Shown here: one piece after another, positions 6,688-53,991 of the stretch
Layout of the letters: each line of letters starts with the position of its first letter
Position numbering within the stretch: position 1 is the first letter of the stretch
DNA from: Campylobacterales bacterium
GTDB lineage: Bacteria > Campylobacterota > Campylobacteria > Campylobacterales > Hydrogenimonadaceae
Direction: 5' to 3'
NCBI GenBank assembly: GCA_027081015.1
Contig: JALWMA010000082.1
Coordinates: 40,737 to 104,736 of the forward strand
Length of the DNA: 64,000 nt
The notes under the pieces: generated by a model
What the model was told of the DNA's origin: nothing
The model's database searches: none
Seen by the model: the letters and a program-made list of their open reading frames with translations, nothing else
Program-made: the position numbers and the translations under genes

Positions 6688-7344
6688 ATGGGCAGATTTT
6701 TTTTATCTCTCGTTCTGGCCCTGCTCGTAGCCGGCTGTACTACCGACAACGGCGGAAGCGGCGGTTTCGAGCCCAAAGAGGCGACAGGGCAGGAGAGAAC
6801 GAAGTACCGCACATTCATAAGCGACGAGGAGCTGAAAACCCAAAAAGAGCTCGCGCTCATCGAGGCGAACAAGAGCGTGGAGCTCGAAAAGATAAGCAGC
6901 GCCGCGAAGCTTAAGCAGCTGGAGCTTCAGAAGCGGGCGGAGCTGGAGCTCATGCGCGAAAAGGAGAGGCTGCTTAAAATTGAGCATGAGCAGGCGCTCG
7001 AACGCTACACCCTTTTGGGCGCCATCTTGCTGCTGCTTCTTGCCGGCGGAGCGCTTCTGTGGTACTTCGACAGAAGGCGAAAAGACAAACTGCGAGCCTA
7101 CGAAGACAACCTGAAGAAGTATTTCCACCAGAAAGAGAACGAGTCGCGCGTAAAGATAGCCGAAAAGATCCTCGATACCGTTGCCTCGAAAGATCTAAGC
7201 AGCGAGCAGCGGGCGAAGCTGATAGAGGCGCTTCACGGCACTGCCCCGAAAGCCGCGACTCCCCCGCCTGAGAGCGAAGAGAACGATACCGAAGATGCGA
7301 TTTTGATAGAGACCAGAGAGGAGAATCCGGATGAAAAGAAGTGA
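6688..7344 (+). CDS. Lipoprotein with coiled-coil plus internal TM helix (unknown function)
   Basis: 218 aa; lipobox LVAGC, charged coiled coil, TM YTLLGAILLLLLAGGALLWYF, cytosolic-like tail. Confidence 0.75.
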   Translation: MGRFFLSLVLALLVAGCTTDNGGSGGFEPKEATGQERTKYRTFISDEELKTQKELALIEANKSVELEKISSAAKLKQLELQKRAELELMREKERLLKIEHEQALERYTLLGAILLLLLAGGALLWYFDRRRKDKLRAYEDNLKKYFHQKENESRVKIAEKILDTVASKDLSSEQRAKLIEALHGTAPKAATPPPESEENDTEDAILIETREENPDEKK

Positions 7345-8152
7345 CGAGATATACTCGGAAGGGGCGCTGCTCTCCAGAAGCCTTGCGGACTTTCTCACCA
7401 CGAAGTTTCTGGCCCTCAGCACGGCACCTTTTTTCATAACACTGCTTATTTCCATAATATTTCTTTACTACCTATCGGGCGAGTTTTTCGACATGCTCAA
7501 CGTAGCGGCGCAGGTATCGCAGAACCCTGATGCGGTAGATACGCAGAACGAATTGGCACAGTTTGCGAAGGAGTACCCGATCATCTCCGCCATTTTGGGC
7601 AGCTTCATCTTCAAGGCGATCGCGGGAACGCTCTTCTATCTCATAGGGGGAGGCTTCGCCGTTTTGGTTTCGGTCATCCTGGCCGTTATCATCATAGGCT
7701 TCTTCACCCCCTACATAGTTGCCGAAGTGCAGAAGCGCCACTACCCGAACATCGAGCGCAGAGCCACCGTTTCAATAGTCGACTACCTGATCTTTCTGCT
7801 CAAGCAGTTCGGCCTATTCCTCCTCTTTTTCTTCGCATCTTTGCCCTTTTACTTCATCCCCGTGCTGAACATCGTGGCGATGAACGCCCCCTTCTACTTT
7901 CTCTTTCACACGCTGCTTACAAAGGATGTGGCGGGGGAGATTCTCGACTCCCGGGAGCAGAGAGAGGTATTTAAAAAGGCGAAGTGGCGCATTGCGACGA
8001 CCACCTTCATACTCTACCTCCTGTCGCTGATTCCGGCTGTCGGTATACTGGGGCAGGTCTACTTCGTCATAGTGCTCTCACACCAGTTTTTCCAGGAGGC
8101 TGCCAGGCTGAGGGGTGCGCAGATCGAGGGGACGGCGGCCCTTGAGCGGTAG
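7331..8152 (+). CDS. EI24 domain-like multi-pass membrane protein
   Basis: 273 aa, several TM helices, EI24/CysZ-like pattern; overlaps upstream stop. Confidence 0.7.
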   Translation: MKRSDEIYSEGALLSRSLADFLTTKFLALSTAPFFITLLISIIFLYYLSGEFFDMLNVAAQVSQNPDAVDTQNELAQFAKEYPIISAILGSFIFKAIAGTLFYLIGGGFAVLVSVILAVIIIGFFTPYIVAEVQKRHYPNIERRATVSIVDYLIFLLKQFGLFLLFFFASLPFYFIPVLNIVAMNAPFYFLFHTLLTKDVAGEILDSREQREVFKKAKWRIATTTFILYLLSLIPAVGILGQVYFVIVLSHQFFQEAARLRGAQIEGTAALER

Positions 8153-8166
8153 GCTCGAGCAGTCCG

Positions 8167-8547
8167 CTACCACCTGATGCCGATGCGTCCGCCGCCGATA
8201 AGCGCGATCGCCAAAGCCCCTACAAGATAGAGGAGGGGTGTCTCGATACTCCAGCCGCCGAACTTTCCGAGCGAAAAAAGGTTTCCGCCGTAGGCGAGTG
8301 CGATCGCTACGGCCATGTTGAAAGCCACAACAGCCGCCGCGATACGGGTACGGAAACCGACTATAAGCGCAACCGGCGCCAGCACCTCGCCTATGTAGAC
8401 CCCGTAGCCGATCCACTGCGGGAGCGAGTGTGCGGCGAGCATCCCCTTGATCGGATCTATGCCGTATAAAACCTTATGGATACCGTGGAAAAGAAGCAGA
8501 CCTCCCACGCCCAGACGCAGAAGAAACTTTCCCCACTCCGCCGTCAT
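8167..8547 (-). CDS. DoxX family membrane protein
   Basis: 126 aa; LLRLGVGGLLLFHGIHKVLYG...IGEVLAPVALIVGFRTRIAA. Confidence 0.85.
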   Translation of the reverse strand: MTAEWGKFLLRLGVGGLLLFHGIHKVLYGIDPIKGMLAAHSLPQWIGYGVYIGEVLAPVALIVGFRTRIAAAVVAFNMAVAIALAYGGNLFSLGKFGGWSIETPLLYLVGALAIALIGGGRIGIRW

Positions 8548-11144
8548 TTTCCGCCTCCTTTCGGGGTATACTCCAGTACTACCGGTTCGCTGAAGTTTGG
8601 CACGTCGTCATATGTGAAAACGGCATAATACTTCTTTACGTCCAGCGCTCCGAAGTCGTCGTATGTCCAGCTGTCCTGTCCGCCATAGAGCTTGTCGCCG
8701 TCATACGGCGAGATGGGAACCCTGAAGGGGTTCTTTATAACGAAAACACCTCTGAAATCCCGATCGTCGGGATTTCTCCATTCGAGCCTTATCTTGTCGT
8801 TTTCGACTCTGTAGCGCAGGTTTTCGACGGCGGCTACAGGGCGGCGGCGCTTGTGCAGATACTCCACGACCAGCCGGGGCGTATACTCGGGGTGCGAACT
8901 GTGCCACTCGACAACCGAATTTTTCACCAGCTTCTTCGCACTGCTCGGACGCAGCAAAAAGGCGATGCCCTTTCCGCCTCTGAGCATATTTCCGAACTCC
9001 TGTATCGCATATGTATCGAAAACGAAGACCTGCTCTCCGTTTTTGAGATCGCCGGCGCTCACATCGTAACCTATGTTCTCTATGATGCGCCGCTCTTTTA
9101 TGGCCTCATAATCCCTCTCGGAGGCGGCATCTATCATCTCGAGATGGAACCGGATGTTCTCTTTGGCATAGACCTTCACGGGCTTGAGAACCACATATGC
9201 CCGTGTTATCTGCATAAAGTCCAGATCCGGCAGAGATCCGAGCTCGAAATCGAAAGTGGAGTAGATCTTTTTTCCATCACCGTCGAACCCGGCCGCAATT
9301 TTACCCTCTTCTACGCCGCCTGCCATTACGGTAAAGCTCCGCTTGGGAAAGAGTTCGAGCTTTTTTGGCGCAAGCGTATAGGTTATCTCCAGGTGCGGCC
9401 TGAAAGCGAGGCCTCCGCCGAACTTTCCGTAGCCTATATCCCACTGCATCATCTGTGAGCTTCTGCCTACATTTAGGGTTTTCGGCCCCTCCATTCTGAA
9501 GACCGCCTCTTTTTTCGCTATCTGCTCCTGCAAAACGGCACACTCTATCTCACTGAACTCCCAGCTCCTCCAGATACCCTGGGTCAGGTGGTTCGAGGGC
9601 GTAGGGCGCCCCACGTACGTAAGAGGCTTCATGCTCTCCACACTCTTGAAGTCGGTTATCTCTTCTATGCTCTCCCGGTCCACTATGGCTACACTCCACT
9701 CACCGAATTTCTCTACAGTGACACCTACGCGGTTCATAGGGTAGATACGGAGGCGGGCACGTTTTATAACGGCGTTTTCGGGAACCGTTTTGAGAGGTAC
9801 GGTTATTACGGCGTAGCTTACTCCCTTCGCTTCACTTACGCCTACAAAGAGCGAATTCAGACCGAAATGCGAAGCGTTATCTTTCGCTTTCTCGGCCACA
9901 TACCCCGTTTTGGACGGGATCGGAAAGTATGTACGGTGAAACTCGTCGTCGGCCACATGTGTGCGAATCGCCAACACGGGTGCAAACGGCGACTTGCGGC
10001 CGCTGCTCTTGTTTACGGCGCGTATATGGTAGAAGTAGAGAGTATCGCTTCTAAGGTTGTTGTCGCAGAAGCGGTTCGCCTGCGTGATGCCCATGAGGTT
10101 GAAGCGGCGGCAGTACGACTTTTCACGCCTGCTTCTGTATATCTCGAAATATATCTCGTCTCCGTCCTGCTCGTAAGGCTCCCACTCAAGTGTCACATTC
10201 TCCGTGCCCACATAGGTGGCCCTGAAGTTTTCCGGTCTCTCCATACGCCGCTCTTTGGCGTAGTTGGGGGCCTCCATGATAGCGGCGATAAGGGCCGGGA
10301 TATGCTCCCTGATATGCTCTATCATATCGTCGAGATAGTCGGAGATGTTTCGCGTTCCGACCTCCACGACACTCGCTATTATCCCTCTGGAGTAGTAGAA
10401 CTCCCTGCCGCTGCCGCTAATGAGCTTCGCCGGCGGTTTGCCCTGGTGTATTCCGTATTCTCGGTCGCTAATTTTTCTGATCTCTTCTGCCATATTGGCG
10501 CACAACACGTTCATGTCGGTCGTATCTATCGTATCTTCGTGTCTGAAGTCGTGTGCGGGGAAAAAAACGTTGCCCTGCGAGTGGTAATCGAGCGCTACGG
10601 CAATGTTCGGATGCGACTCCACGAAATCCCTGAGCGCCCTCGTTTCGGGTTCGCTGAAAGGTTCCGGACCGCCGTATATGTTGGATGTGGGCTTGTTCGA
10701 CTTCACGAAGCCGACCGGGAAGTTTCTGTTTAGGTCGACACCGTAGCTGCCGTCGGCATTCTGTCTCCTGTTTTTGCGCCAGAACGAGAAGTGGTTGCGC
10801 GAATACTCGAAGCCGTCCGGGTTCGCGCACGGCACCATGTATATAGCGGCGTTTTCGAGTGCCGTCTGCACATCGTGGTCGTACTCTATGTTTCTGTCGA
10901 CATACTGGGCGAAGCCGATGGCCAGCTCCAGCCCTATCCACTCTCTTGCGTGTATCGTTCCGGTAAAAAAGAGTGCCGGCTTTTGCGCGGCCTTTTGAAC
11001 AGATTTCGAAATGGTTACCGCGACAATGTCGCGCTTCTCCCATGTCTGCCCTATGACTTCGACGGCAAACAGGTCCGGTCGTCTTTCGGCCAGCTCTTTA
11101 AATAGCGCGACCGCCTCATCGTACGAGTGGTAAAGCTGCTTCAA
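8544..11144 (-). CDS. M14 zinc carboxypeptidase with fibronectin III-like and DNRLRE-like beta modules
   Basis: 866 aa; HAREW zinc motif, NPDGFEYS, DLNRNFPVGF, VVEVGT; ATGA overlap with doxX. Confidence 0.88.
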   Translation of the reverse strand: MKQLYHSYDEAVALFKELAERRPDLFAVEVIGQTWEKRDIVAVTISKSVQKAAQKPALFFTGTIHAREWIGLELAIGFAQYVDRNIEYDHDVQTALENAAIYMVPCANPDGFEYSRNHFSFWRKNRRQNADGSYGVDLNRNFPVGFVKSNKPTSNIYGGPEPFSEPETRALRDFVESHPNIAVALDYHSQGNVFFPAHDFRHEDTIDTTDMNVLCANMAEEIRKISDREYGIHQGKPPAKLISGSGREFYYSRGIIASVVEVGTRNISDYLDDMIEHIREHIPALIAAIMEAPNYAKERRMERPENFRATYVGTENVTLEWEPYEQDGDEIYFEIYRSRREKSYCRRFNLMGITQANRFCDNNLRSDTLYFYHIRAVNKSSGRKSPFAPVLAIRTHVADDEFHRTYFPIPSKTGYVAEKAKDNASHFGLNSLFVGVSEAKGVSYAVITVPLKTVPENAVIKRARLRIYPMNRVGVTVEKFGEWSVAIVDRESIEEITDFKSVESMKPLTYVGRPTPSNHLTQGIWRSWEFSEIECAVLQEQIAKKEAVFRMEGPKTLNVGRSSQMMQWDIGYGKFGGGLAFRPHLEITYTLAPKKLELFPKRSFTVMAGGVEEGKIAAGFDGDGKKIYSTFDFELGSLPDLDFMQITRAYVVLKPVKVYAKENIRFHLEMIDAASERDYEAIKERRIIENIGYDVSAGDLKNGEQVFVFDTYAIQEFGNMLRGGKGIAFLLRPSSAKKLVKNSVVEWHSSHPEYTPRLVVEYLHKRRRPVAAVENLRYRVENDKIRLEWRNPDDRDFRGVFVIKNPFRVPISPYDGDKLYGGQDSWTYDDFGALDVKKYYAVFTYDDVPNFSEPVVLEYTPKGGGK

Positions 11145-12673
11145 TAATCTTCCTGCTTTATGGCGATATGGTCGCGGATTTTAGCCAATTTCTTTTTACC
11201 CAGACCTTTTATTTTCAACATATCTTCGATCTTTTCGAAAGGCCCGTGCTTCTTTCTGAACTCCACGATCTTCCCGGCCAGTTTTTTGCCTATCGCTTTT
11301 ATCCCGCTCAGGCTCTTTGCATCGGCTTTGTTGATATCGACCCTGCCGTGAAGCTTCTCTGCCCACACTTTCAGCGTCTGTTTCTCTATCCCCTCGAGTT
11401 CGAGCAGCTCTTCTATGCTCTTTATGTCACGGCTCCTTATGTAGCGGATAACCTCCACGGCTATCTCCTCCTCCATGCCGTGAAGGGTCATCAGCTCAGT
11501 AAGCGTCACTCCCTCCAGTGAGATTTCGCTATCTTCGAGCCCATCGTGCCGCGCTTGTGACTTTTTCGACTCCTCCAGTATCTCTTCGGGCAGATCCTCT
11601 TCCCTCTCTATATGTCTGTGCAGATGGCTGTCGTCGGGAATATCTTCGGGAACGCTCTCTTCGGCAAGCTCCATATCCCATCTGCCCTCTTTGTCGTTAA
11701 CGTAGTAGGCTCCGTCACTCGAGGGGATATATCTGCTGAACTCGATATGGCGCATGGTTCTAAGAAGCGAAGAGTCGATCTTGCCGAGCTCCTCCCAGTT
11801 ATACAGCGGTATATGCGGCTTCGGAAAGCGCCCCTCGGAGAAGTCCCACATCAGATACCGGCCTATCCAGTCCCTGAAGTACGGAAAGGCCGCAAATGCC
11901 GTAGCGCACTCCAGTATGTAGTACTTACCGTCATATTCGGCGATGTCGCAGGCCCAGTACTCCGCTTTTGCCGCCTTCGAAGCCTCCACCGCAAGCTCGA
12001 GCGCTCCCATCGGCACCCCTTCGTAGGTCATGTAGCCGCCCTGGGAAGTGTTGGTCAGGTCCATATCTTCACCCGCCACACGCCAGAAGGCGCATGCGGG
12101 CTTGTGGCCTATCAGCATCACTCTTATGTCGGCTTTCAGCGGGATGCACTCCTGAATATACATAGGCATATACTTTTTTTCGTCGAAAAGCTTTTTCGCT
12201 TCCTCTTTGCTTTTGACCTTGTGCACATAGTAGCCTCCATAATTCGAGGGGCCGTAGCTTCGCTTTATTATGACGGGGTAGTCGCACTTCTCGAGATAGC
12301 GGTACCCCTCATCTCTGTCGTAGAATATCTCCGTTTTGGGATGCGAGAGGTTGTGCTTTTCGCAAAATAGCGTCACATTCTCCTTGCTTTTGTTCGAAAA
12401 CTGGGTCTCGAGCGAAGGGACAAACCTCACATGCGGAAGCTCCTTGGCTATCTCCCTGAAGGTTTCATAGGCTGTTGCGGGTATGTTGCCGATGAGGATA
12501 TCGATCTTCTTCTTTTTCACCTCTTCTATGAACCTCTCTTTGTCGTTGCCCCAATGGTAGACGACATGCTCTATCTTGTCGGGCCAGCCTTTGAAGTTGG
12601 ATCTGTCGAAAAACCTCAAAACGTAGTCGAGGTAGAGGAGTCCCAGTTTAGGAAGTTTTCTCTTTTTGGCCAT
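11141..12673 (-). CDS. ATP-grasp domain protein fused to ComEA-like helix-hairpin-helix repeats
   Basis: 510 aa; ATP-grasp-like YPVIIKRSYGPSNYGGYYVHKV...YIQECIPLKADIRVMLIG...YYILECATAF; C-terminal VDINKADAKSLSGIKAIGKKLAGKIVEFRKKHGPFEKIEDMLKIKGLGKKKL. Confidence 0.8.
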   Translation of the reverse strand: MAKKRKLPKLGLLYLDYVLRFFDRSNFKGWPDKIEHVVYHWGNDKERFIEEVKKKKIDILIGNIPATAYETFREIAKELPHVRFVPSLETQFSNKSKENVTLFCEKHNLSHPKTEIFYDRDEGYRYLEKCDYPVIIKRSYGPSNYGGYYVHKVKSKEEAKKLFDEKKYMPMYIQECIPLKADIRVMLIGHKPACAFWRVAGEDMDLTNTSQGGYMTYEGVPMGALELAVEASKAAKAEYWACDIAEYDGKYYILECATAFAAFPYFRDWIGRYLMWDFSEGRFPKPHIPLYNWEELGKIDSSLLRTMRHIEFSRYIPSSDGAYYVNDKEGRWDMELAEESVPEDIPDDSHLHRHIEREEDLPEEILEESKKSQARHDGLEDSEISLEGVTLTELMTLHGMEEEIAVEVIRYIRSRDIKSIEELLELEGIEKQTLKVWAEKLHGRVDINKADAKSLSGIKAIGKKLAGKIVEFRKKHGPFEKIEDMLKIKGLGKKKLAKIRDHIAIKQEDY

Positions 12674-12723
12674 CTTTTTCTATCCTTTTGATTTATGTTA
12701 TGCGAATACCGGACCGGACCGTA

Positions 12724-13635
12724 TTACCGTTTGGCCGCACTCTTCCTGTCGATCATATCGACGATCATCTCAATCTTTCTGTCGTTGAAATCGAGCCCGA
12801 GCCTCTCCTGCTCCGGTGTGGCGAATGCGGGTATTCCGTTTATCTCCAGCACCAGGTACTCTCTCTTTTTTCTGTCATATATGATGTCGACACCTGCGAT
12901 CTCCAGCCCCACGATCTCGACCGCTCTTTTCGCCAGATCCACTACCTCCTCCTCCGGTTCACGCAAAAAGACGCTCCCGCCGCTGGTTACGTTGGTGCGC
13001 CAGTCGGTACCTCCCGCCTTGCGCCCATAGCAGCCGACATATTTGCCGTCTACGATATCGACGCGGTAGTCCGTACGGTCGTAGTCTATGAACTTCTCCA
13101 CATAGAAAAAGCGCAGGTCCATCTGGTTCAAAAAAGGGAGCAGCGTATCGAGCGTGGCTTCGCTGTCGATTTTCGTCAATCCGACTCCGCCCCATCCGTC
13201 CGTCGGCTTGTATACCATCTGCTTCCAACTACGGATGAACTTCTTCAAACGCTTCGAGTCGTCACGGTGGCAGAGCCTGAAGTCGGGTGTGCTTACGCCG
13301 TTGTTTCTCAGCAGGTAACTTGTCTGGAACTTGTCTTCGGTAAGTTCGAAAGAGTCATAGTTGTTTATGCAGGGAACCATCCGGTTTAGCGCCTTGTACA
13401 GATACATCTGATACTGCGTCTGCTCGCCGGCATTGTAGCTGAAAAAGAGATCGAGCTTCTCCATATTGATGCCGTGGCAGCGAATATGGCCCCCTTTTAC
13501 ATAGGCGTCACGCAGATTCAGCCCCGTAATCGGCTCGATACCCCGATCTTTGAGCATCTTTACGATTCTTTTTTCTATCCTGTCGCCGCCCCCGTTTTGG
13601 TACATCCAGATACCTACACGCCTCTTCTTACCCAC
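12724..13635 (-). CDS. RimK-like ATP-grasp ligase
   Basis: 303 aa; QMVYKPTDGWGGVGLTKI, FVEKFIDYDRTDYRVDIVDGKYVGCYGRKA, DIIYDRKKREYLVLEINGIPAF. Confidence 0.85.
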   Translation of the reverse strand: MGKKRRVGIWMYQNGGGDRIEKRIVKMLKDRGIEPITGLNLRDAYVKGGHIRCHGINMEKLDLFFSYNAGEQTQYQMYLYKALNRMVPCINNYDSFELTEDKFQTSYLLRNNGVSTPDFRLCHRDDSKRLKKFIRSWKQMVYKPTDGWGGVGLTKIDSEATLDTLLPFLNQMDLRFFYVEKFIDYDRTDYRVDIVDGKYVGCYGRKAGGTDWRTNVTSGGSVFLREPEEEVVDLAKRAVEIVGLEIAGVDIIYDRKKREYLVLEINGIPAFATPEQERLGLDFNDRKIEMIVDMIDRKSAAKR

Positions 13636-14740
13636 AGATCGCTCCTCTCTCCTGGTGATGGGCCAGGACCCTGGTCATAAGCTCTATACGCTCTTCGAAA
13701 CTCCTTTTCAGCGCTCTCTCCCTTACGGTATGGTCGCCGTCTCCGTAAGGGCCCAGACCGTCGAGCGTAACCACTCCGGCGGCGGCTACTATATTGGCAT
13801 CGCTTACACCCCCGCGCATCTCGGTTCCGATCTTCATGCCGGCAATCTCGCCCATCGCTTCGACCAGCTCCTTCTGCCATGCGTTGGGCTCCATCACATC
13901 ACGCTGGATGGAGCCGCCGAGTCTCGATGAGGTACCCTTCACAAAAGATTCTGCCGCAATATCTTCCAGTCCGCACAGAAGCCTCTCACGCTCCCTGTTG
14001 TCGGCATACCTGAGCTCCAGCAGCAGTTTTGCGTGGGGGCTTACCGTATTTGCACCCACACCTCCTTCGATCCTGCCCACATTTACCGTCGACCCCTTTT
14101 GAAGGTCCGTCAGGGCCGTAAGTTTTTGAAGCTTCAGCGCCGCTTCGAGGTTAGCATCGCACCCTTTGTCGTAAGAGGTACCGGCATGAGCGCCCTTTCC
14201 CTCTATCGCAATCTCGAAGGTTCCTATCCCTTTTCGCCCCACGACCACCTCCATATCGGGACCGGCGGCTTCGAATACGAAACATTTGTCGTAGCCGGCG
14301 GCAAGTTCGCGGGTGAGCTGTCTGGAGTCGTCGCTTCCCGTCTCTTCGTCGCTGACAAGAAGAAAGTCGATGTCCTCGATTTTCGAAAACTTCTCATAAA
14401 TCGCGCGAAGCGCCTCCAGAGCAACTATGTTGCCCCCCTTCATGTCGCACACACCCGGACCGTACACCCACTCCTCGTCCTCTTCGAAACCCTCAAACGA
14501 ACCGGGGTGGAATACGGTATCGAGATGACCGAGAAGAAGGATCTTCTCACGCTTTTCGGTTTTCGGCGAAGCGAACAGAAGATGGTCGCCTATGAGCTCC
14601 CTCTCGTATCTTTTTACTCCAAAGCCGATCTCTCCGAGCCATTCGGCGAAGAGATCCCCCACTCTGTCCACCCCATTTTTATTGTGCGTATGGGAGTTGA
14701 TCAGAACGGTTTTCTCAAGATCGTTTTTCCATTTTTGCAT
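13628..14740 (-). CDS. M20-family metallopeptidase (carboxypeptidase G2-like)
   Basis: LLGHLDTVFHPG, YGPGVCDMKGG, LLVSDEETGSDDS; ATG start MQKWKNDLEK at 14740 preferred over the TTG extension to 14809. Confidence 0.85.
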   Translation of the reverse strand: MQKWKNDLEKTVLINSHTHNKNGVDRVGDLFAEWLGEIGFGVKRYERELIGDHLLFASPKTEKREKILLLGHLDTVFHPGSFEGFEEDEEWVYGPGVCDMKGGNIVALEALRAIYEKFSKIEDIDFLLVSDEETGSDDSRQLTRELAAGYDKCFVFEAAGPDMEVVVGRKGIGTFEIAIEGKGAHAGTSYDKGCDANLEAALKLQKLTALTDLQKGSTVNVGRIEGGVGANTVSPHAKLLLELRYADNRERERLLCGLEDIAAESFVKGTSSRLGGSIQRDVMEPNAWQKELVEAMGEIAGMKIGTEMRGGVSDANIVAAAGVVTLDGLGPYGDGDHTVRERALKRSFEERIELMTRVLAHHQERGAICG

Positions 14741-42664: not shown

Positions 42665-45499
42665 ATGAGCGCATTACCCTATGCTCCAGGCCAACGCATC
42701 ATCATACGTGATACCGAATGGGTGGTCCGACGAGTCGATCTTTTGGCCGATGGCGGTTATAAATTGACCTGCGAAGGTATCTCACCTTTCGTCAAAGGTA
42801 AAGAGTCGATCTTTTTGACCGGTTATGAAAAAGGTATTCAAATCATCGATCCGGCGCAGACGAGGTTGGTGGCGGATGATTCATCAGGCTATCATCGCTC
42901 GATGCTCTATATCGAGAGTTTGCTTCGGGAGTTGGTGCCCACGGACGATCGCATCTACAGGGCCCACAAAGCGGCGATGGATCTGGTGCCCTATCAGTTC
43001 GATCCGGCATTGCAGGCGTTAAATCAACCCAGACAACGCATTCTCATGGGCGATGCCGTGGGCCTTGGAAAAACCTTGGAGGCGGGCATCCTCGTCAGCG
43101 AATTGATCAAACGGGGACGCGGCAAACGCATTCTGGTATTGGCGGTCAAAAGTATGCTGACCCAGTTTCAAAAGGAGTTCTGGAACCGCTTCTCCATTCC
43201 CCTCATGCGCCTCGATTCGCAAGGAATCCAGCGGGTGCGCAGCCGCATTCCCGCCAATATGAACCCCTTCTACTACTACGACAAATCGATTATCTCCATC
43301 GATACGCTCAAACAAGAAGCCCTCTACCGCACCTACATCGAGCAGGCCTATTGGGATATCATCATCATCGACGAAGCCCACAATGTCGCCGACCGCAACA
43401 GCGGATCGCTTAAAGCCAAACTGGCCAAGCTTGTCGCCTCTCGCTGTGATTCACTCATTATGCTCTCGGCCACACCCCACGATGGAAGTGCAAAAAGTTT
43501 CGCCTCGCTGCTTAATCTTTTAGACCCCACAGCCATCCCCGACCCACAAGACTATACTGTAGACGATTTCAAAGACAAAGGTCTTGTGATACGTCGTTTC
43601 AAAAAGGATATCGCCGACCAGGTCAAAGAGGAGTTCAAACCTCGAAAGATTTTCATCGAAGAGGGCAGGGCGATCGCCACCGACGTGGAAGAGGCAGCCT
43701 TCGACCTTCTCTCCAAAATAGAACTCCACACCATCGACGCCCGCAAACGAAGGGGCAGCGAACTCTTTCGCACCACCCTCATCAAGTCGCTGATGTCTTC
43801 GCCCGTCGCCTGCATCGCCACCATCGAAGAGCGGCTCAAAAAACTTGAAAAGGCCGAGGGGGATTACGAAGAGGATATCGCCTCGCTGCAGCGTCTTAAA
43901 GATCTACTGGAGCGTATTGACGCAGACAACTTCTCCAAATACCAAAAACTGGTGGAGCTGATAAAAAAACGGATCAAATGGAAAAAGAGCGCTACCGACG
44001 ACCGTTTGGTCATCTTCACCGAACGCCTGCCGACGATGCACTTTTTAGCCCAGCACCTCAAAGCCGATCTTTCGCTCAATGACCAACAGCTCGTCACTCT
44101 CCACGGCGCGATGCCCGATGTGGAGATCAACCGCATCGTCGAGGATTTCGGTCAGGAGAACTCAAAAGTCCGTGTGCTGGTGGCCACCGACGTGGCCAGC
44201 GAGGGGATCAACCTCCACTACCTATCCCACCGGCTCTTCCATTTCGACATCCCCTGGTCGTTGATGGTCTTTCAGCAGCGAAACGGCCGGATCGACCGCT
44301 ACGGTCAGGAGAAGGAGCCAGAGATCTACTACATGCAAACCGCCAGCCAAAACCCAGAATTCAAAGGGGACAACCGCATTCTGGAAATCCTGATCGAAAA
44401 GGATCGCCAAGCCGCCGAGAACATCGGGGACCCTTCGGCCTTCATGAATGTCTACGATCCGGAAAAAGAGGAGGCGATCACTGCCGACGCCATAGCTTCA
44501 CATAAAGATCCCGAAGCCTTCTCCAAAGAGCTGGACGAGAATCTACAGCATTCGGAGTTCGACTTTCTCTCGCTGCTCGAAGAGGCCCAGGAGCATCGCA
44601 CCGAGGAATCGCCCGATTCGGTCTTCGTCGATCTGCCCACCATCTACAAAGACGATCATCACTACGCCACGACGGCCCTGAAGTTTCTCCAAAACCACGG
44701 CGGCGAAAAGCTCGAGGTTCTCTACGAGGAGGACCGCATCCGTCTCGTGCCGCCCGAAGATCTCAAATACCGCTTCAAGATGCTCCCCAAAGAGGTATGG
44801 CCAAAAGAGGGCTATTTTCTGCTGACCCAAAACCGCGACATCATCGACAAAGAGATCAAAGATTCCCGCAAAAACGAAGCCGCCTGGCCGCAGGTTCACT
44901 ACCTGTGGGAACAGCACCCTGTCATGGAGTGGCTGCGCGACAAGCTGCTGAGCAACTTCGACCGTCTCGAAGCCCCCATCCTGCACCTGCCCACCCTGAA
45001 ACCTTCGGAGACGATCTACCTCGTTTCGGGGCTTATCCCCAACAAAAAGGCTCAACCCCTCATCCATCACTGGATCGGGCTCTCTTTCGATAACGGCCAA
45101 TACCGTGAAACCCTGGGTTGGGAAGAGGTGGTGCGGCGGACCCGCCTGGGCAAAGAGGCTTTCTCCAACCCTGCCAAAGCTTTCGACACCGCCGCCTACG
45201 AAGCGATGCTCCCCCGGGCCATCGACGCGGCCAGAGAGTATATGCGGCGCCAATACGAAATCTTCGACAAAGAGATAACCGAGAAACTGCAACACCATTA
45301 CGACGAACTGGAAAAGCTCAAAAAGCGCCACATGAAGCGCTACAGCCTCTTTCACGACGAGGAGCTGGAGCAGAGCAGGGAAGGGCGCCGAATCAAAAAG
45401 ATTTTCGATGACTATTGGGAGTGGATGGAGGAGACGATGATTTTGGAAAAAGAGCCCTACATACAGGTCATCGCGGCCCTGGCAGGAGATGCGTCATGA
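42665..45499 (+). CDS. SNF2-family helicase, DrmD/DpdE/BrxHII-like (defence-associated)
   Basis: 944 aa; GDAVGLGKTLEAGIL Walker A, IIIDEAHNV Walker B, LSATPHDG, ATDVASEGINLHYLSHRLFHFDIPWSLMVFQQRNGRIDRYGQ. Confidence 0.88.
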   Translation: MSALPYAPGQRIIIRDTEWVVRRVDLLADGGYKLTCEGISPFVKGKESIFLTGYEKGIQIIDPAQTRLVADDSSGYHRSMLYIESLLRELVPTDDRIYRAHKAAMDLVPYQFDPALQALNQPRQRILMGDAVGLGKTLEAGILVSELIKRGRGKRILVLAVKSMLTQFQKEFWNRFSIPLMRLDSQGIQRVRSRIPANMNPFYYYDKSIISIDTLKQEALYRTYIEQAYWDIIIIDEAHNVADRNSGSLKAKLAKLVASRCDSLIMLSATPHDGSAKSFASLLNLLDPTAIPDPQDYTVDDFKDKGLVIRRFKKDIADQVKEEFKPRKIFIEEGRAIATDVEEAAFDLLSKIELHTIDARKRRGSELFRTTLIKSLMSSPVACIATIEERLKKLEKAEGDYEEDIASLQRLKDLLERIDADNFSKYQKLVELIKKRIKWKKSATDDRLVIFTERLPTMHFLAQHLKADLSLNDQQLVTLHGAMPDVEINRIVEDFGQENSKVRVLVATDVASEGINLHYLSHRLFHFDIPWSLMVFQQRNGRIDRYGQEKEPEIYYMQTASQNPEFKGDNRILEILIEKDRQAAENIGDPSAFMNVYDPEKEEAITADAIASHKDPEAFSKELDENLQHSEFDFLSLLEEAQEHRTEESPDSVFVDLPTIYKDDHHYATTALKFLQNHGGEKLEVLYEEDRIRLVPPEDLKYRFKMLPKEVWPKEGYFLLTQNRDIIDKEIKDSRKNEAAWPQVHYLWEQHPVMEWLRDKLLSNFDRLEAPILHLPTLKPSETIYLVSGLIPNKKAQPLIHHWIGLSFDNGQYRETLGWEEVVRRTRLGKEAFSNPAKAFDTAAYEAMLPRAIDAAREYMRRQYEIFDKEITEKLQHHYDELEKLKKRHMKRYSLFHDEELEQSREGRRIKKIFDDYWEWMEETMILEKEPYIQVIAALAGDAS

Positions 45500-48400
45500 A
45501 TCTGGTCGGCATCGTCAACGAAAACGAATTCTACACCTCCCACTATCTCAGTGAGATCTTCGAAAACGATATCAAAGAGCAAATCGACGCCTGGAATGCC
45601 GGAGCCGAAGAGGAGGAAGCTTTCACCCCACCCCATCGCCGTCTGCGGGGGATGTCGGGCGACTACTTCTCCATGCTCGACACGTTCCAAAAACGCCATA
45701 CCGCGACATTGGAGAAACTGGAGCTTTCGCGAAATTTCCTTCGACGATTGCTGGAGACATTGGGTTACGACTACGCTCCCAGAAGCGAAGAGCTCGAAAA
45801 CGGCGCCGTGCCGCTTCTGGGCAGCGTGGAGCGTGCCGACGGGTCGCCTCTGTTGTGGATGCTGGAGGGCTACTGCACCGAACCGTGCGACGTGCTGCAG
45901 ACCGCACCCATCACCGAACAGGTGGAAGAACTGCTCGACCCCATCGATGCGGAAAACTACGACGAAATCATCACCACCCACATCTTCAGCCTCGAAGAGC
46001 CGCCCCGCTGGGTGATGCTCCTCTCTCCCTGGCAGATCGTACTGATCGACCGCGCCAAATGGGCGCAGAAGCGCTATCTTCGCTTCGAACTCACCGAAAT
46101 CTTCGGCCGCAGGGAGGAGCCCACCCTCAAGGCGACGGCGGCACTGCTGCATGCCGACTCCCTCGTGCCCAAAGATGGCATGAGCCTGCTCGACACGCTG
46201 GATGAAAACTCCCACAAACACGCCTTCGGCGTCACAGAAGATCTCAAATACGCCCTGCGCGAAGCGATCGAACTGCTGGCCAACGAAGCCCTCCGCTACG
46301 CGCGGAGCCAACGCCCCGAACTGCTGGAAACCGAAGGACTTGACGAACGGCTCAGCCGCGAGAGCCTGCGTTACATGTACCGCCTGCTCTTTCTTTTCTA
46401 CATCGAGTCGCGGCCGGAGCTGGGTTACGTCCCCCTGGAGTCGGATGCCTATCTCAAGGGCTACTCCCTGGAAAACCTCCGGGACCTGGAGCTGATGCCG
46501 CTAACAACCGACCACGACAAAAACGGCTACTTCTTCGACGAATCGATCCGGCTGCTCTTCGCCATGATCTTCGAGGGCCGTCACTACGAAAGGCTGGGCA
46601 ACGGCCAGGAGCTTTTCGAAATCACGCCGTTGCGCTCTCACCTCTTCGATCCGCAGCACACGCCGTTTCTCAACAACGTGCGCATCCGCAACCATGTCTG
46701 GCAATCGATCATCCGCAGCCTCTCCCTGAGCCGCCCCCAAAAGGGTAAAAAAGGACGCGGGCGTATCAGCTACGCCAATCTGGGCATCAACCAACTGGGC
46801 GCAGTCTACGAAGCGCTGCTGAGCTACAAGGGTTTCATCGCCAAAGAGACGCTCTACGAAGTCAAAAAAGCGGGCACCGACCCCAACCCCCTGGAACACG
46901 CCTACTTTGTCACCGAGTCGCAGCTTTCGGAGTACAAAGAGAGCGAGCGGGTCTTCGACAAAGAGGGGAGACTGGTGCGCTACGAGCCGGGCACCTTCAT
47001 CTACCGCCTGGCGGGGCGCGACCGGGAAAAGTCCGCCTCCTACTATACCCCCGAAGTGCTCACCAAAAGCCTGGTCAAATACGCCCTCAAAGAGCTGCTA
47101 AAAGACAAAAGCGCCGACGAAATACTGGGCATCACCGTCTGCGAACCGGCCATGGGAAGCGCCGCATTCCTCAACGAAGCGATCAACCAGCTCGCCGAAG
47201 CCTACCTGCAGCGCAAGCAGATCGAAAGCGGTGAACGCATCTCCCACGACCGCTACATCCTCGAGCGCCAAAAGGTCAAGATGTTCATTGCCGACAACAA
47301 TGTCTTCGGCGTCGACCTGAACCCCACCGCAGTGGAGCTGGCGGAGATTTCGCTTTGGCTCAACGCGCTCTTTGCCGACGAGCACGAAACCTTCATCCCC
47401 TGGTTCGGTCTGCAGCTGGTCAACGGCAACTCCCTCATCGGCGCCCGCCGTCAGGTTTACGAAACCGCGCAACTTACCGCCAAAAGCAAAGATCTACTCT
47501 GGTACCGTGACGCCCCCAGGCGCCTGAACCCCAAAACACTCTGGCCGGTCAAAAAGAGAAAGAGCATACCGGTCCATCACGAAGCAGGCTCCCTCTTCGC
47601 CGATGAAACGCAACTTCCTCTCGAAACGGTGGAGGAGAAAGAGGAAAAGAGCGCAGGCCGCCGCACCCAAAGCGAAATCTACCACTTCCTCGTGGGCGAC
47701 AAGGCGATGGCCGACTACAGCGACAAGGTGGTCAAAAAGCTCAAAAAAGCGCAGATCGACACCATCAAAAGTTGGCGCAAAAAGTTCATCGAGCCCTATA
47801 CCCAAGAGGAGATCCAAACCCTCCTGCGTCTTAGCCGCGCCATCGACAAGCTCTGGCAGGAGCACACCCGCCACCAGCACGAGATGCGCCGCAAGACCAC
47901 CGACCCCCTAAAGGTCTGGGGCCAGCCCCCCAGCGGTCGCAAACTGACAAATCTAAAGTTCAAAGACACGGTATTGCATCAAGAGCGCAACTGCCAAGCG
48001 GTCAAAAACGCCTCCCCCTACCGCCGGCTCAAGATGGTCATGGACTACTGGTGCGCCCTGTGGTTCTGGCCCATCGACGAAGCCGAGCTCCTGCCCTCCC
48101 GCGCCGAGTATCTCGAAGAGATCTCCCGCATCGTCGAAAAGCGCGATGACATCCTGGTCAACCTGGAAAAGAACAAAACCCTCTTCGCCGAAACGATGGA
48201 CGAAGAGGAGATGAAGCTGCAGTTGGATGAATTGGGCTTCATAGACATCGAAGAGCTGGTGCAAAACAACCCCCGCCTACAGATCGTAGAGCGCGTCGCC
48301 AAAGCCCAGAAGTTTCTGCACTGGGAGCTAGAGTTTGCAGACATCTTCGCCAAACGGGGAGGCTTCGATCTGATTTTGGGGAATCCGCCGTGGCTACAAG

Positions 48401-50322
48401 TAGCGTGGGAAGAAACTGAAATTATATCTGATACATATCCAATATATGGTTTTAGAAAAAATTTGAAAAAAAACAAAGCGTCAATTATAGAATATCTATT
48501 CAATAAAAATATAAAATTTTCTAAATATTATATATCAGAATATATTGAAACTGCATCTACTCAAAATTTTCTCAGCGCAATTCAAAATTACCCCATTCTG
48601 GAGGGAATGAAGACAAATTTATATAAATGTTTTATGCCAGTCGGGTGGGAAATTTCAAACAAAAAAGGAGTTATTGGATTTTTGAATCCAGAAGGAGCAT
48701 ATGAAGACAAGTTTGGAGGTAAATTAAGAGTCGAAATATATAAAAGGTTAATTTATCATTTTCAGTTTCAGAATCAAAAGATGTTTTTCCCAATTGCACA
48801 TAGAAAGAGATATAGCATAAATATATTCAAAAATAATAAGAATTTAAATTATTTTATTTCTATATCAAACTTATTTGTTCCTAAAACAATTGATGATTCA
48901 TTTGAATTTTTTGGAGAGGATGATGTTGATGGGATAAAAAATTATAAAAATGAATGGAATACTAAAGGACATTCAAGTAGAATTATTAAAATTGATAACG
49001 AAATTTTAAAACTCTTTTCTAGTGTATTTGATGAAACAAATACTCCCTGTAATGAAGCTAGATTGCCAGCTATACATTCTATAGAATTGATTAATGTTTT
49101 AAAAAAGATAGATGAGTACCCTGTTAAATTAATATCGAAAAAAGAATCGTTTTTCACTACTTCAATGTTTGATGAAAATGGTGCACAAAATGAAGGTATT
49201 ATCAGAAAAGAAACATCTTTTAGAACAAATCTTGATGAGTTAATTATTTCAGGGCCTCATATATATATAGGTTCATTTTACTACAAAACGCCTAGAAAAA
49301 CATGTAACGAGAAAGCAGATTATGATGTTTTAGATTTATCAAACATTAGCAATGATTATATACAAAGAAGTAATTTTATTCCTATTAAGCCAAAATATTT
49401 TAATAAAATACCAAAATTTAACTATAAGAAAGTAACTGAGTTTTATAGACTTGCATATAGAGGAATGCTCCCGCCAGCAAATGAAAGGACTTTAATTGGC
49501 GCTATTATTCCTATGAAAATTGGACATACTCACGCAATAAGATCAATAGCTTTTAAAGATACCGAACTATTAATTCAACAAACTTTATACGGTATATCTT
49601 TAATAGGTGATTTTTTTATCAAGACAATAGGTATAAGTAATTTCAGTAGTAGTTTATTTGAAAAATTTCCAAATATAACAATTAATGATAAACTCCAAAT
49701 TAGGGTGTTATCTTTGTCCTCACTTACAATTTATTTCAAAAGTTTTTACGAAGAACAATTTAATAAATCCTTCAAAACAGACAGTTGGACCAAACCGAAT
49801 GACCCCCGCCTCAACCACGACTTTTTCAAAAACCTCACCCCCCACTGGCAGCGAAATGTCGCATTGCGCACCGATTACGAAAGACGCCAGGCACTGGTGG
49901 AGATCGATGTACTCGTAGCCCAGGAGCTTGGCTTGACTCTGGATGAGCTAAAAACGATTTATCGCATCCAGTTCCCCGTCCTGCGTCAAAACGAAAACGA
50001 AACCTACTACGACATCAACGGCCGCATCGTCTTCACCGTCTCCAAAGGCCTCACCGGTATAGGCCTCCCCCGCCGAGCCCGCCGAGACGACCGACCATGC
50101 AAAATCGTCATCGACGGCGAAGCGGTAGCAGAAAAACCCCTCGGCTGGGAAGATATAGCCGAGATGCAAGAGGGCGAAATCCACCGCACCATCACCGACG
50201 ACACCCTACCCGGCGGCCCGATAGAGCGCACCATCGTCTATAAAGCACCTTTTGCAAAATGCGACAGAGAAGAGGATTACGAGGTCGCGTGGAGAGAATT
50301 TGAGAGGAGGAAGCAGAAATGA
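45496..50322 (+). CDS. Eco57I/DrmMI-like DNA N6-adenine methyltransferase, possibly with restriction activity
   Basis: About 1608 aa from MNLVGIVNENEFYTSHYLSEIFE; motif I VCEPAMGSAAFLNEAINQLAEAYL, motif IV LILGNPPWLQVAWEE; ATGA overlap with upstream helicase. Confidence 0.87.
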   Translation: MNLVGIVNENEFYTSHYLSEIFENDIKEQIDAWNAGAEEEEAFTPPHRRLRGMSGDYFSMLDTFQKRHTATLEKLELSRNFLRRLLETLGYDYAPRSEELENGAVPLLGSVERADGSPLLWMLEGYCTEPCDVLQTAPITEQVEELLDPIDAENYDEIITTHIFSLEEPPRWVMLLSPWQIVLIDRAKWAQKRYLRFELTEIFGRREEPTLKATAALLHADSLVPKDGMSLLDTLDENSHKHAFGVTEDLKYALREAIELLANEALRYARSQRPELLETEGLDERLSRESLRYMYRLLFLFYIESRPELGYVPLESDAYLKGYSLENLRDLELMPLTTDHDKNGYFFDESIRLLFAMIFEGRHYERLGNGQELFEITPLRSHLFDPQHTPFLNNVRIRNHVWQSIIRSLSLSRPQKGKKGRGRISYANLGINQLGAVYEALLSYKGFIAKETLYEVKKAGTDPNPLEHAYFVTESQLSEYKESERVFDKEGRLVRYEPGTFIYRLAGRDREKSASYYTPEVLTKSLVKYALKELLKDKSADEILGITVCEPAMGSAAFLNEAINQLAEAYLQRKQIESGERISHDRYILERQKVKMFIADNNVFGVDLNPTAVELAEISLWLNALFADEHETFIPWFGLQLVNGNSLIGARRQVYETAQLTAKSKDLLWYRDAPRRLNPKTLWPVKKRKSIPVHHEAGSLFADETQLPLETVEEKEEKSAGRRTQSEIYHFLVGDKAMADYSDKVVKKLKKAQIDTIKSWRKKFIEPYTQEEIQTLLRLSRAIDKLWQEHTRHQHEMRRKTTDPLKVWGQPPSGRKLTNLKFKDTVLHQERNCQAVKNASPYRRLKMVMDYWCALWFWPIDEAELLPSRAEYLEEISRIVEKRDDILVNLEKNKTLFAETMDEEEMKLQLDELGFIDIEELVQNNPRLQIVERVAKAQKFLHWELEFADIFAKRGGFDLILGNPPWLQVAWEETEIISDTYPIYGFRKNLKKNKASIIEYLFNKNIKFSKYYISEYIETASTQNFLSAIQNYPILEGMKTNLYKCFMPVGWEISNKKGVIGFLNPEGAYEDKFGGKLRVEIYKRLIYHFQFQNQKMFFPIAHRKRYSINIFKNNKNLNYFISISNLFVPKTIDDSFEFFGEDDVDGIKNYKNEWNTKGHSSRIIKIDNEILKLFSSVFDETNTPCNEARLPAIHSIELINVLKKIDEYPVKLISKKESFFTTSMFDENGAQNEGIIRKETSFRTNLDELIISGPHIYIGSFYYKTPRKTCNEKADYDVLDLSNISNDYIQRSNFIPIKPKYFNKIPKFNYKKVTEFYRLAYRGMLPPANERTLIGAIIPMKIGHTHAIRSIAFKDTELLIQQTLYGISLIGDFFIKTIGISNFSSSLFEKFPNITINDKLQIRVLSLSSLTIYFKSFYEEQFNKSFKTDSWTKPNDPRLNHDFFKNLTPHWQRNVALRTDYERRQALVEIDVLVAQELGLTLDELKTIYRIQFPVLRQNENETYYDINGRIVFTVSKGLTGIGLPRRARRDDRPCKIVIDGEAVAEKPLGWEDIAEMQEGEIHRTITDDTLPGGPIERTIVYKAPFAKCDREEDYEVAWREFERRKQK

Positions 50323-53300
50323 GAATTACTCTGCCTCCATTAGAAAAAGTGTATTATAAAAAAGTTGGTCACAAGAATATAGTTAGACAATTACTCTCTC
50401 CAGAAATAATTGGGGAATATAGATTTATCTCTTCTAATCGAGGTTATTCGACCATAGAGGTTGATTCAAAACAGATATATTTAGCTAAAGAGTTAGATTT
50501 TTGTCCTAGTGAAGCAGAATATGTCATAAAAGTAAATAAAAAAGCTAGAGATGAAGCTATAGTCAATAGTGAAATTAAATTCTTAAAATGGCTAAAGCAT
50601 CCACTAGATAATGAATTTAGCACCGATGAGATTTTAGATTCATGGGAAAATAATTTTAACTTTATAGAGGAAAATACTGACAGACATATAAAAGGTCTCA
50701 GAGAACCACAGATAGCAGCTCTTTACTCTATTTTGAGTCATATCAAAGTTTCAGAAGAAATGGGAATTGTTGTCATGCCCACAGGAACAGGGAAAACCGA
50801 GACGATGTTGTCAACTTTGGTTTCTAATCAATGTAAAAAGATTTTAATAACTGTTCCTTCAGATGCGTTAAGAGAACAAATTTTCAATAAATTTCTGACA
50901 CTTGGATTGTTAAAACAATTTCATATAGTCGATAATAGTGCACTATATCCAAGAGTGGGAATGATTAAAGATAAATTTTCTTCTATCCAAGAATTGAATA
51001 GTTTTTTAGATGAAAGTAATGTTGTGGTTACAACAATGAGCATGCTATCGAACTTTTCTTCCGATATGCTCTCATCAATGGCGGAGTCCTTTGAATATAT
51101 CTTTATAGATGAGGCGCATCATAGTGAAGCAAGTTCATGGTCTAAAGTAAGAAGTTCTTTTCTCAAAAAACAAATTATACAGTTTACGGCAACACCATTT
51201 AGAAATGATGGGAAAAGATTAGATGGAAAAATAATTTTCAATTTTTCGCTAAAGAAAGCGCAAGAGCAAGGGTATTTTAAACCGATAAAATTTATTTCTA
51301 TTCGAGAATACGACTTAGAAAAGGGTGATAAATTAATTGCTCAAAAAGCAGTTGAACGATTAAGAAAAGATATCGCAAATGGGCACAATCACATCCTCAT
51401 GGCAAGGTGTGAAAATAAAAAAAGAGCTGCAGAAATCTTCCAGTTATATGAAGAACATGAAGATCTATCCCCTGTACTTATACATTCATCCATAGCAAAC
51501 AAAAAAGAAATAATGGCTTCTATTGTTAATGGCGAACATAAAATTATAGTTGCAGTAGATATGCTTGGAGAAGGCTTTGATCTACCACAATTAAAGATAG
51601 CGGCTTTTCACGATATACGAAAAAGTTTACCTGTTACCCTACAGGTTGCTGGTCGTTTCACAAGAACATCTCTAGACAATGACCTTGGTGAAGCAACATT
51701 TATCGCAAATTTGGCTGATGCAAAAGTAGAAGAAGAGTTGGCGGAGCTATATGCCAGAGATGCTGACTGGAATATATTATTGTCAGATTTAAGTGCTGGT
51801 CGAACAGAAGACAAGATTGAATTAGATGAGTTTATAAGAGGCTTTAACGGTTTAGATGAATCCAAAATACCTTTTCAGAATATTCGTATGGCAATGAGTG
51901 CTGTAGTTTATAAAAATAATTCTACCTCTTATAATCTTTCAAATTTCAAATATGGGCTCAATGGATATGATAAGTTTGAGTATAAATATGAATATTATAA
52001 TCATGAAAACAATACATTGGTTGTCATTTATGCTGATACTAATAATCTAGAGTGGGTTAACTACAAAGAAATATATGAGCTTCATTGGGAATTGATGGTT
52101 TTATATTATGATGAAGCAACTAAGCTACTGTACATCCACAGCTCTGATAAATCAAGTCTTTACAAAGATGTGGCCACTAGTATTTTAAACAAAGATGCTC
52201 GTCTATTAAATGAGCTAAATGTATTTAAAGTTTTTCATGACATCTCAAGAGTTACTCTACAAAATGTTGGCTTGAAAGAATTTTTGAGCAAACATATTCG
52301 TTTTACAATGAGAACAGGGACCGATGTTGCAGAGGCATTATCTGCTTCAATGCAAGCTAAGGCACAAAAAGCATTTCTTTTTGGAACCGGTTATAAAAAT
52401 GGAGAAAAAATAACTCTAGGATGCTCTTATAAAGGTAGGATTTGGAGCTACTCCAGAGGCAATTTAAAAGACTATGTTAAATGGTGTAATACAATAGGTA
52501 CTAAAATAATTGATCCAAGCATAGATGCAAACCTGATTTTAAAAGATACTCTTATTCCTGTTTTTGTCAATGCTATACCAGATAAGTATCCTATTTCGAT
52601 TGATTGGGATGAAGGTTATTATGAGTTCAGCGATTCAAAAACATATATCAATATCAACGGCAACAAAATTAGCATAATAGACTTGGGATTGGAAATCGAT
52701 AGTTCAAGAAAGGGTGAAATTATATTTTCACTTAGAACTCCATTTCATGCAATTAATTTTAGACAAGAAATAATTCAAGAGACTGACTCATCAACAAGTG
52801 AAACATTTTATGATTATAAATATGAACAACTCTCATCAGAAACCATAGATATTACCATCGGCACTAAGACATTACCTTTTCTTGATTATCTTAAAGAGAA
52901 TCCTATTACAGTTTGGTTCGCAGATGGTTCTTCTTTACAAGGTAATAAATTTGTAGAGTTAAAACAATTGATACAACCATACCCTAATGAAAAATTAATT
53001 GCATGGAATTGGGAAGGTGTTGACATAAAAAAAGAAGCACAAGGGGTTGAGCTTTTAGTCACTGATTCTATCCAGTATAGGATGATCGAAACTTTAAAAG
53101 AGGATGATCTTGATATTATTTATGATGATGACGGGCCTGGTGAAATTGCAGATATTGTCACAGTCAAGGAAACAGATGATGAAATATATATTCGATTTTA
53201 TCATTTAAAATATGCTCATGGAGAAGCTGTTGGAAAAAGAGTTGCAGATTTTTATGAAGTTTGTGGACAAGCACAAAAATCAATTCATTGGAAACATAAA

Positions 53301-53576
53301 AGTGGGGATTATTTTTTTGAGCGGCTTTTAAAGCGAGAGGTTAAGAAAAAAGATGGATGTGAAAGAAGCAGGATCGAAAAAGGTTCAAAAGATGATCTGG
53401 AAAGACTACTTCTAATAGCAAAAAATAAAAAACCTATGAAGTTTGAAGTATTTATCGTTCAACCTGGCATGTCAAAAAAAGATACAAGTCCAGAGATTAT
53501 GACATTAATTGGTGTTACTGAAAACTATTTAAAAGATGTTGGCGGGGTTGATTTGAAGGTAATTGTAAATGAGTAA
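50319..53576 (+). CDS. SSL2/Res-type DEAD/DEAH helicase with C-terminal domain of unknown role (possible nuclease)
   Basis: 1085 aa; VMPTGTGKTETML, FIDEAHHSEA, FTATPFRNDG, DMLGEGFDLPQLKIAAFHD, QVAGRFTR; ATGA overlap with methyltransferase. Confidence 0.85.
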   Translation: MRITLPPLEKVYYKKVGHKNIVRQLLSPEIIGEYRFISSNRGYSTIEVDSKQIYLAKELDFCPSEAEYVIKVNKKARDEAIVNSEIKFLKWLKHPLDNEFSTDEILDSWENNFNFIEENTDRHIKGLREPQIAALYSILSHIKVSEEMGIVVMPTGTGKTETMLSTLVSNQCKKILITVPSDALREQIFNKFLTLGLLKQFHIVDNSALYPRVGMIKDKFSSIQELNSFLDESNVVVTTMSMLSNFSSDMLSSMAESFEYIFIDEAHHSEASSWSKVRSSFLKKQIIQFTATPFRNDGKRLDGKIIFNFSLKKAQEQGYFKPIKFISIREYDLEKGDKLIAQKAVERLRKDIANGHNHILMARCENKKRAAEIFQLYEEHEDLSPVLIHSSIANKKEIMASIVNGEHKIIVAVDMLGEGFDLPQLKIAAFHDIRKSLPVTLQVAGRFTRTSLDNDLGEATFIANLADAKVEEELAELYARDADWNILLSDLSAGRTEDKIELDEFIRGFNGLDESKIPFQNIRMAMSAVVYKNNSTSYNLSNFKYGLNGYDKFEYKYEYYNHENNTLVVIYADTNNLEWVNYKEIYELHWELMVLYYDEATKLLYIHSSDKSSLYKDVATSILNKDARLLNELNVFKVFHDISRVTLQNVGLKEFLSKHIRFTMRTGTDVAEALSASMQAKAQKAFLFGTGYKNGEKITLGCSYKGRIWSYSRGNLKDYVKWCNTIGTKIIDPSIDANLILKDTLIPVFVNAIPDKYPISIDWDEGYYEFSDSKTYININGNKISIIDLGLEIDSSRKGEIIFSLRTPFHAINFRQEIIQETDSSTSETFYDYKYEQLSSETIDITIGTKTLPFLDYLKENPITVWFADGSSLQGNKFVELKQLIQPYPNEKLIAWNWEGVDIKKEAQGVELLVTDSIQYRMIETLKEDDLDIIYDDDGPGEIADIVTVKETDDEIYIRFYHLKYAHGEAVGKRVADFYEVCGQAQKSIHWKHKSGDYFFERLLKREVKKKDGCERSRIEKGSKDDLERLLLIAKNKKPMKFEVFIVQPGMSKKDTSPEIMTLIGVTENYLKDVGGVDLKVIVNE

Positions 53577-53587
53577 AGGAAAATGAT

Positions 53588-53919: not shown

Positions 53920-53929
53920 ATCGATAGTG

Positions 53930-53958
53930 TTGGAAAAATAGAGAAATAGTTGTATAAT
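53930..53958 (+). promoter_or_regulatory. Sigma70-like promoter for the abiE-led operon
   Basis: TTGGAA (53930-53935), 17 nt spacer, TATAAT (53953-53958). Confidence 0.6.
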
Positions 53959-53969
53959 CATGCATGGAT

Positions 53970-53988
53970 AATAGAAAATATTTCTATT
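53970..53988. promoter_or_regulatory. Inverted repeat, candidate AbiEi operator
   Basis: AATAGAAA-ATA-TTTCTATT immediately upstream of the AbiEi start. Confidence 0.45.
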
Positions 53989-53991
53989 TAG

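Follow-up and report, generated by a model that had tools for sequence, protein, structure and literature searches.

A conserved four-gene module of ATP-grasp proteins and carboxypeptidases with a possible role in reversible C-terminal glutamylation

Introduction

The RimK/RimB pair provides a precedent for a ligase that acts with an opposing protease (PMC11957791). Here we describe a comparable locus, encoded at positions 8167-14740 of a 64,000-nucleotide stretch of a Campylobacterales genome (contig JALWMA010000082.1; the whole stretch is called the window in the following). Its core is a module of four genes, which encode an M20 peptidase, two ATP-grasp proteins, termed AG1 and AG2, and an M14 carboxypeptidase. 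With the RimBK (RimABK) system of Pseudomonas the module shares the combination of a RimK-fold ligase and a putatively opposing protease, as well as an accessory, horizontally patchy and probably cytosolic character. The two systems differ, however, in their parts. RimB is a retropepsin-like aspartic endopeptidase rather than an M14 or M20 enzyme, and RimBK contains one ligase instead of two. Its target is RpsF (ribosomal protein S6), the C-terminus of which does not track the present module: S6 appears unlikely as a common target, as its C-termini were alike in 26 carriers and 28 non-carriers of the module (mean of 2.9 versus 3.3 acidic residues among the last ten). Several carriers had no acidic S6 tail. 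No gene for a retropepsin-like RimB is conserved beside the ligase in the module neighbourhoods. Since RimB is missing, two ATP-grasp proteins are present and the S6 tail does not follow the module, the locus is not a member of the RimBK system.

A RimK-fold ligase together with an M20 hydrolase is also found in the amino-group carrier pathway of LysX/ArgX, LysW and the M20 enzyme LysK, and LysX and ArgX are the closest folds of AG2. That pathway has no M14 enzyme, whereas the module loci have neither a LysW-like carrier nor conserved biosynthesis genes nearby. In eukaryotes the glutamylation of tubulin is cycled by ATP-grasp-type writers (TTLL) and M14 erasers of glutamate chains (CCP). For our locus this is an analogy only: the tubulin erasers belong to another M14 subfamily, the writers are TTL-type ligases, and no targets are shared.

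A conserved four-gene module

The genes for M20, AG1, AG2 and M14 constitute a real, uncharacterised module whose grouping is far beyond chance. In a sample of 298 genomes of the class, AG2 was found in 31, M14 in 32 and module-type AG1 in 31 genomes, and all three occurred together in 30 (hypergeometric p < 1e-36, a calculation that ignores the relatedness of the genomes). Module-type AG1 was defined by at least 58% identity; all other RimK-like matches were at or below 30%. The AG2 genes of this survey are patchily spread over 15 genera. The exceptions to co-occurrence were genome G105, whose contig ends just past AG1, G218, which has no AG1, and G256, which has M14 alone. At 43 of the 49 GTDB loci with enough flanking sequence all four genes were present, in Campylobacterota, Desulfuromonadales and Gammaproteobacteria and in varying contexts. 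The initial annotation had taken the ligases and peptidases as one functional unit, which gene neighbourhood and co-occurrence bear out; its reservation that the genes might rarely be neighbours elsewhere does not apply.

When 84,980 species genomes were scanned with a pattern for AG2 relatives, 360 stretches were returned, the best 80 of which were kept and read. Carriers among these 80 were mostly Campylobacterota, joined by Desulfuromonadales (Desulfuromusa, Geopsychrobacter) and Gammaproteobacteria (Thiomicrorhabdus, Pseudoalteromonas, Endozoicomonas, Sansalvadorimonas, Aestuariibacter). The named carriers are largely marine. In the class of Thiomicrorhabdus the module is rare, since the only match among 369 sampled genomes was the Thiomicrorhabdus genome itself.

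The flanking genes change between lineages. Apart from local housekeeping synteny and common response-regulator and GGDEF-type genes (names judged by eye) we found no conserved neighbours at the module loci, nor is any gene for a cofactor, transport or amino-acid modification conserved beside them. No small open reading frame (ORF) is common to the intergenic gaps; ORFs below 60 aa farther off were not surveyed. A hidden carrier or precursor peptide was rejected on account of these gaps. In line with the initial annotation, which saw no evident precursor peptide or transporter, neither is conserved near the module. The DoxX gene, which had been counted as part of the unit, is adjacent to the module only in the window, in a near-identical Hydrogenimonas metagenome-assembled genome (L064) and in one congener (L032). 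DoxX is a lineage-specific add-on, i.e. a local passenger outside the module.

M20 lies upstream and co-directional at 44 loci and is divergent at 46, keeping its place next to the other genes in spite of the inversion. A concatenated tree of the 48 complete sets, a quick tree with long branches for loci L074 and L117, fell into two halves that match the M20 orientation. Each half contains Gammaproteobacteria interspersed with Campylobacterota, a placement that indicates transfer of the module as a whole. In two genomes (G009, G129) AG2 is located about 0.8 Mb away from the still contiguous M20-AG1-M14 genes, yet is retained. A phage or plasmid origin was rejected: there were no relatives on phage or viral contigs, and a single match lay on a 2.1-Mb Photobacterium replicon.

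The two ATP-grasp proteins

AG1 matches the structures of RimK and LysX/ArgX. Its PF08443 match is above the cut-off, and the complete set of RimK-type ATP-grasp residues (catalytic Lys, Asp-x-Arg, Asp, Glu and Asn, here K143, D189, R191, D250, E264 and N266) is invariant in 48 sequences. In RimK, R189 and N262 contact the last resolved glutamate of the bound chain (PMC10092738). In alignment with RimK, these residues correspond to AG1 R191 and N266. AG1 stays below the cut-off of every NCBIfam model, the top match being MptN with 133.6 bits against a cut-off of 350. The rimK_fam model (TIGR00768, cut-off 143.4 bits) gave 126 bits for AG1 and 61.7 bits for AG2. Both proteins thus remain below the cut-offs of characterised families, and the earlier concern that one of them might belong to a characterised unrelated pathway is not borne out.

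For AG2 the AlphaFold model had a predicted local distance difference test score (pLDDT) of 82, with LysX, ArgX and RimK as best Foldseek matches, and none of the NCBIfam ATP-grasp models reached its cut-off. Residues 1-325 show a mean pairwise identity of 74.6%, the highest in the module (AG1 62%, M14 53%, M20 59%). The strong conservation of this core speaks against decay of AG2. Lys137, Asp182, Arg184, Arg198, Asn208, Asp243 and Glu255 are kept in 48 of 48 sequences. AG2 matches PF08443 as well; in its Glu-x-Asn metal motif, however, the Asn is replaced by Ala257 in all 48. The C-terminal part has a mean identity of only 25%, with matches to helix-hairpin-helix (HhH) families in many members that differ in class and length. 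The sequences leave two roles for AG2, that of an obligate partner or that of a ligase whose metal binding is altered.

The two carboxypeptidases

The M14 model (pLDDT 86, predicted template modelling score 0.86) matches in its catalytic domain the carboxypeptidases A (CPA), B, O (CPO) and T. H65, E68, H188, E261, R123, N139 and R140 are invariant and provide the zinc site (His-x-x-Glu, His) and the equivalents of Glu270, Arg127 and Asn144-Arg145 of the A/B subfamily. In alignment with CPA4, Arg247 takes the place of CPA residue 255 and is invariant in 49 sequences. Arg255 gives CPO its specificity for acidic C-terminal residues (PMC9925722). A CPO-like acidic C-terminal specificity is therefore predicted for M14. 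With CPO and other A/B-type enzymes M14 shares the CPA fold, the catalytic residues and the arginine at position 255; it differs from them by the absence of a prodomain or signal, by the fn3 domain and other beta-rich segments that follow its catalytic domain, and by its genetic tie to ligases. M14 and M20 both start directly at the catalytic domain, which leaves no room for an export signal. M14 is thus probably a cytosolic CPA-type enzyme.

The best match of M20 in the PDB is carboxypeptidase G2 (CPG2). The five metal ligands and the catalytic Glu of CPG2 are invariant, as are the equivalents of its R288, R324, N275 and H229. Unlike CPG2, M20 is encoded in an operon with ligases. The roles of the CPG2 residues, and of CPA residues other than position 255, are those generally known for these enzymes.

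A possible cycle of C-terminal glutamylation

The conserved residues of AG1, M14 and M20, three separate enzymes, converge on acidic residues at the C-terminus. Given this evidence, and as enzymes of writer and eraser type go together in nearly every genome, the simplest model is a system for reversible (poly)glutamylation of the C-terminus, which would add and remove acidic residues, most likely glutamate, on a cytosolic acceptor. We favour this model tentatively, at a little under an even chance. AG1 would be the writer: with RimK/LysX chemistry, as suggested by fold and residues, it would activate the terminal carboxylate of the acceptor with ATP and join it to the amino group of glutamate. 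AG2 may be a regulatory or acceptor-binding subunit of AG1 that is targeted by its variable HhH tail, or itself a ligase whose metal site has changed. M14 would serve as the main eraser that trims C-terminal Glu/Asp off alpha-peptide chains, and M20 would hydrolyse the last residue or small glutamate peptides such that glutamate is recycled. What the sequences show directly is the module with its conservation, the catalytic residues and the M14 arginine at the specificity position; glutamate as the residue, the direction of writing and erasing and the partner role of AG2 are what we infer. The initial annotation had proposed a cycle of two ligases and two peptidases. The unit of ligases and peptidases stands and its chemistry is narrowed to C-terminal acidic residues, probably glutamate, while the second ligase is unproven given the invariant Ala of AG2, and the HhH tail differs in type and length between relatives.

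Several observations weigh against glutamylation. No acceptor was found, the S6 C-terminus not tracking the module. CPG2 Lys208 is not conserved in M20, which has an invariant Arg169-Lys170 instead, and M14 likewise does not conserve CPA Tyr248. The lost metal-site Asn of AG2 belongs here as well. C-terminal beta-rich domains that resemble DNRLRE/fn3, such as those of M14, are more usual in extracellular proteins. Finally, genome G256 has an intact M14, flanked by argG-like and gamma-carbonic-anhydrase-like genes (names judged by eye), but has neither AG1 of the module type nor AG2, and no M20 nearby, so that M14 may have a separate use of its own.

The same enzymes could act on a small molecule: AG1 and AG2 would assemble a short acidic peptide, or extend a cofactor or compatible solute by a polyglutamate tail, and the product would be degraded by M14 and M20. 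MptN, the sub-threshold top match of AG1, is a tetrahydromethanopterin:glutamate ligase, CPG2 removes glutamate from folates, and the named carriers are largely marine; yet a dipeptide would be an unusual substrate for M14, a protein carboxypeptidase of CPA type that carries fn3 and other accessory domains, and the neighbourhoods hold no conserved cofactor, transporter or amino-acid-modifying gene. We regard this explanation as unlikely. Somewhat less probable still appears a tag of two residue types, each with its own peptidase, in which AG2 would be the second ligase, with full activity and another amino-acid specificity. The LysX/ArgX-like fold of AG2, its invariant ATP-binding Lys, Asp-x-Arg and other core residues within the best-conserved stretch of the module and the equal number of ligases and peptidases would fit this, but its invariant Ala sits where RimK N262 contacts the bound glutamate chain (PMC10092738). 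An anti-phage or conflict module would agree with the patchy, horizontally mobile distribution and with a defence island about 30 kb away in the window. PADLOC, however, had no match for any of the five genes, the relatives' loci have no shared defence genes beside them, and neither phage nor viral contigs carry relatives, the large Photobacterium replicon being the sole match; this role is highly improbable.

The glutamylation model has a more far-reaching form that we consider doubtful. Here, the module would be a previously undescribed C-terminal tagging cycle, in which a RimK-like ligase and a catalytically altered ATP-grasp partner with an HhH tail of nucleic-acid-binding type attach an acidic tag to a conserved target. 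Two dedicated carboxypeptidases would edit and recycle this tag, and the whole would move horizontally as a self-contained four-gene unit. No published description came up in a full-text search of open-licence PMC articles for ATP-grasp proteins together with M14/M20, amidoligase, polyglutamylation or HhH, and the module is absent from the family libraries searched. If glutamylation is correct, the module would be a compact, mobile glutamylation/deglutamylation cassette of marine bacteria and would bring a logic like that of the tubulin code, with ATP-grasp writer and M14 eraser, to bacteria, extended by a paired non-canonical ATP-grasp partner. The model makes specific predictions, namely trimming of acidic C-termini by M14 via Arg247 and an AG1-AG2 partnership, and it offers a genetic handle to find the target.

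Organization of the locus and variant loci

The nearest relative of the window genome is a Hydrogenimonas metagenome-assembled genome (96% over concatenated proteins), and judged by sequence the window is from a Hydrogenimonas-like genome. All five minus-strand ORFs of the initial annotation were found at their places (Table 1), and the 8-nt overlap of the M20 end with the AG1 start, the 50-nt spacing between AG1 and AG2 and the ATGA overlap of M14 and DoxX were confirmed. The AG2/M14 overlap, also given as ATGA, reads TTGA because the start codon of M14 is TTG; M14 homologues share this start residue.

Table 1. Features of the locus in window coordinates.
Feature	Position	Strand	Remarks
M20 metallopeptidase, CPG2-like	13628..14740	-	ATG at 14740; first gene of module; Peptidase_M20 + M20_dimer (PF01546/PF07687)
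AG1, RimK/LysX/MptN-like ATP-grasp ligase	12724..13635	-	GTG start; RimK (PF08443); complete ATP-grasp residue set
AG2, RimK/LysX-fold ATP-grasp core + C-terminal HhH region	11141..12673	-	RimK + HHH_3 (Pfam)
AG2 core, residues 1-330	11684..12673	-	highest conservation within module
AG2 codon for Ala257, replacing metal-site Asn	11903-11905	-	A257 in 48/48
AG2 C-terminal HhH region, residues 421-510	11144..11413	-	HHH_3
M14, carboxypeptidase A/B subfamily, + fn3 + further beta-rich domains	8544..11144	-	TTG start at 11144; Peptidase_M14 + fn3 (Pfam)
M14 codon for Arg247, CPA position-255 specificity site	10404..10406	-	alignment to CPA4; invariant in 49 sequences
DoxX-family membrane protein	8167..8547	-	DoxX (PF07681); shares transcription unit here, outside conserved module

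Individual loci deviate from this arrangement. At L118 AG2 (ending at 5629) and M14 (starting at 11850) are held apart by an unrelated stretch of about 6 kb that contains a large helicase-like ORF. In an Arcobacter locus (L140) a second AG1-like gene (12235-13152) follows just downstream of the complete module, next to a weak AG2-like ORF (13164-13601). At G037:C1:157104-157469 (within L062) AG2 is a broken remnant, in which residues 4-124 are interrupted by four in-frame stops; this suggests decay of the module. The intact lone M14 of G256 lies at 7079-9676 of locus L202 (G256:C7) by the argG-like gene, where related Arcobacteraceae seem to have the whole module; this context suggests that the ligases were lost and M14 was kept.

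Elsewhere in the window a defence-type island is located on the plus strand at 45415-61720. It encodes a 1635-aa type IIG restriction-methyltransferase, a 1085-aa helicase whose match is PbeA-like, AbiEi and AbiEii as a pair, and a DruE-like helicase of 2083 aa, and its guanine-cytosine content drops to about 35% over 48-54 kb of the window.

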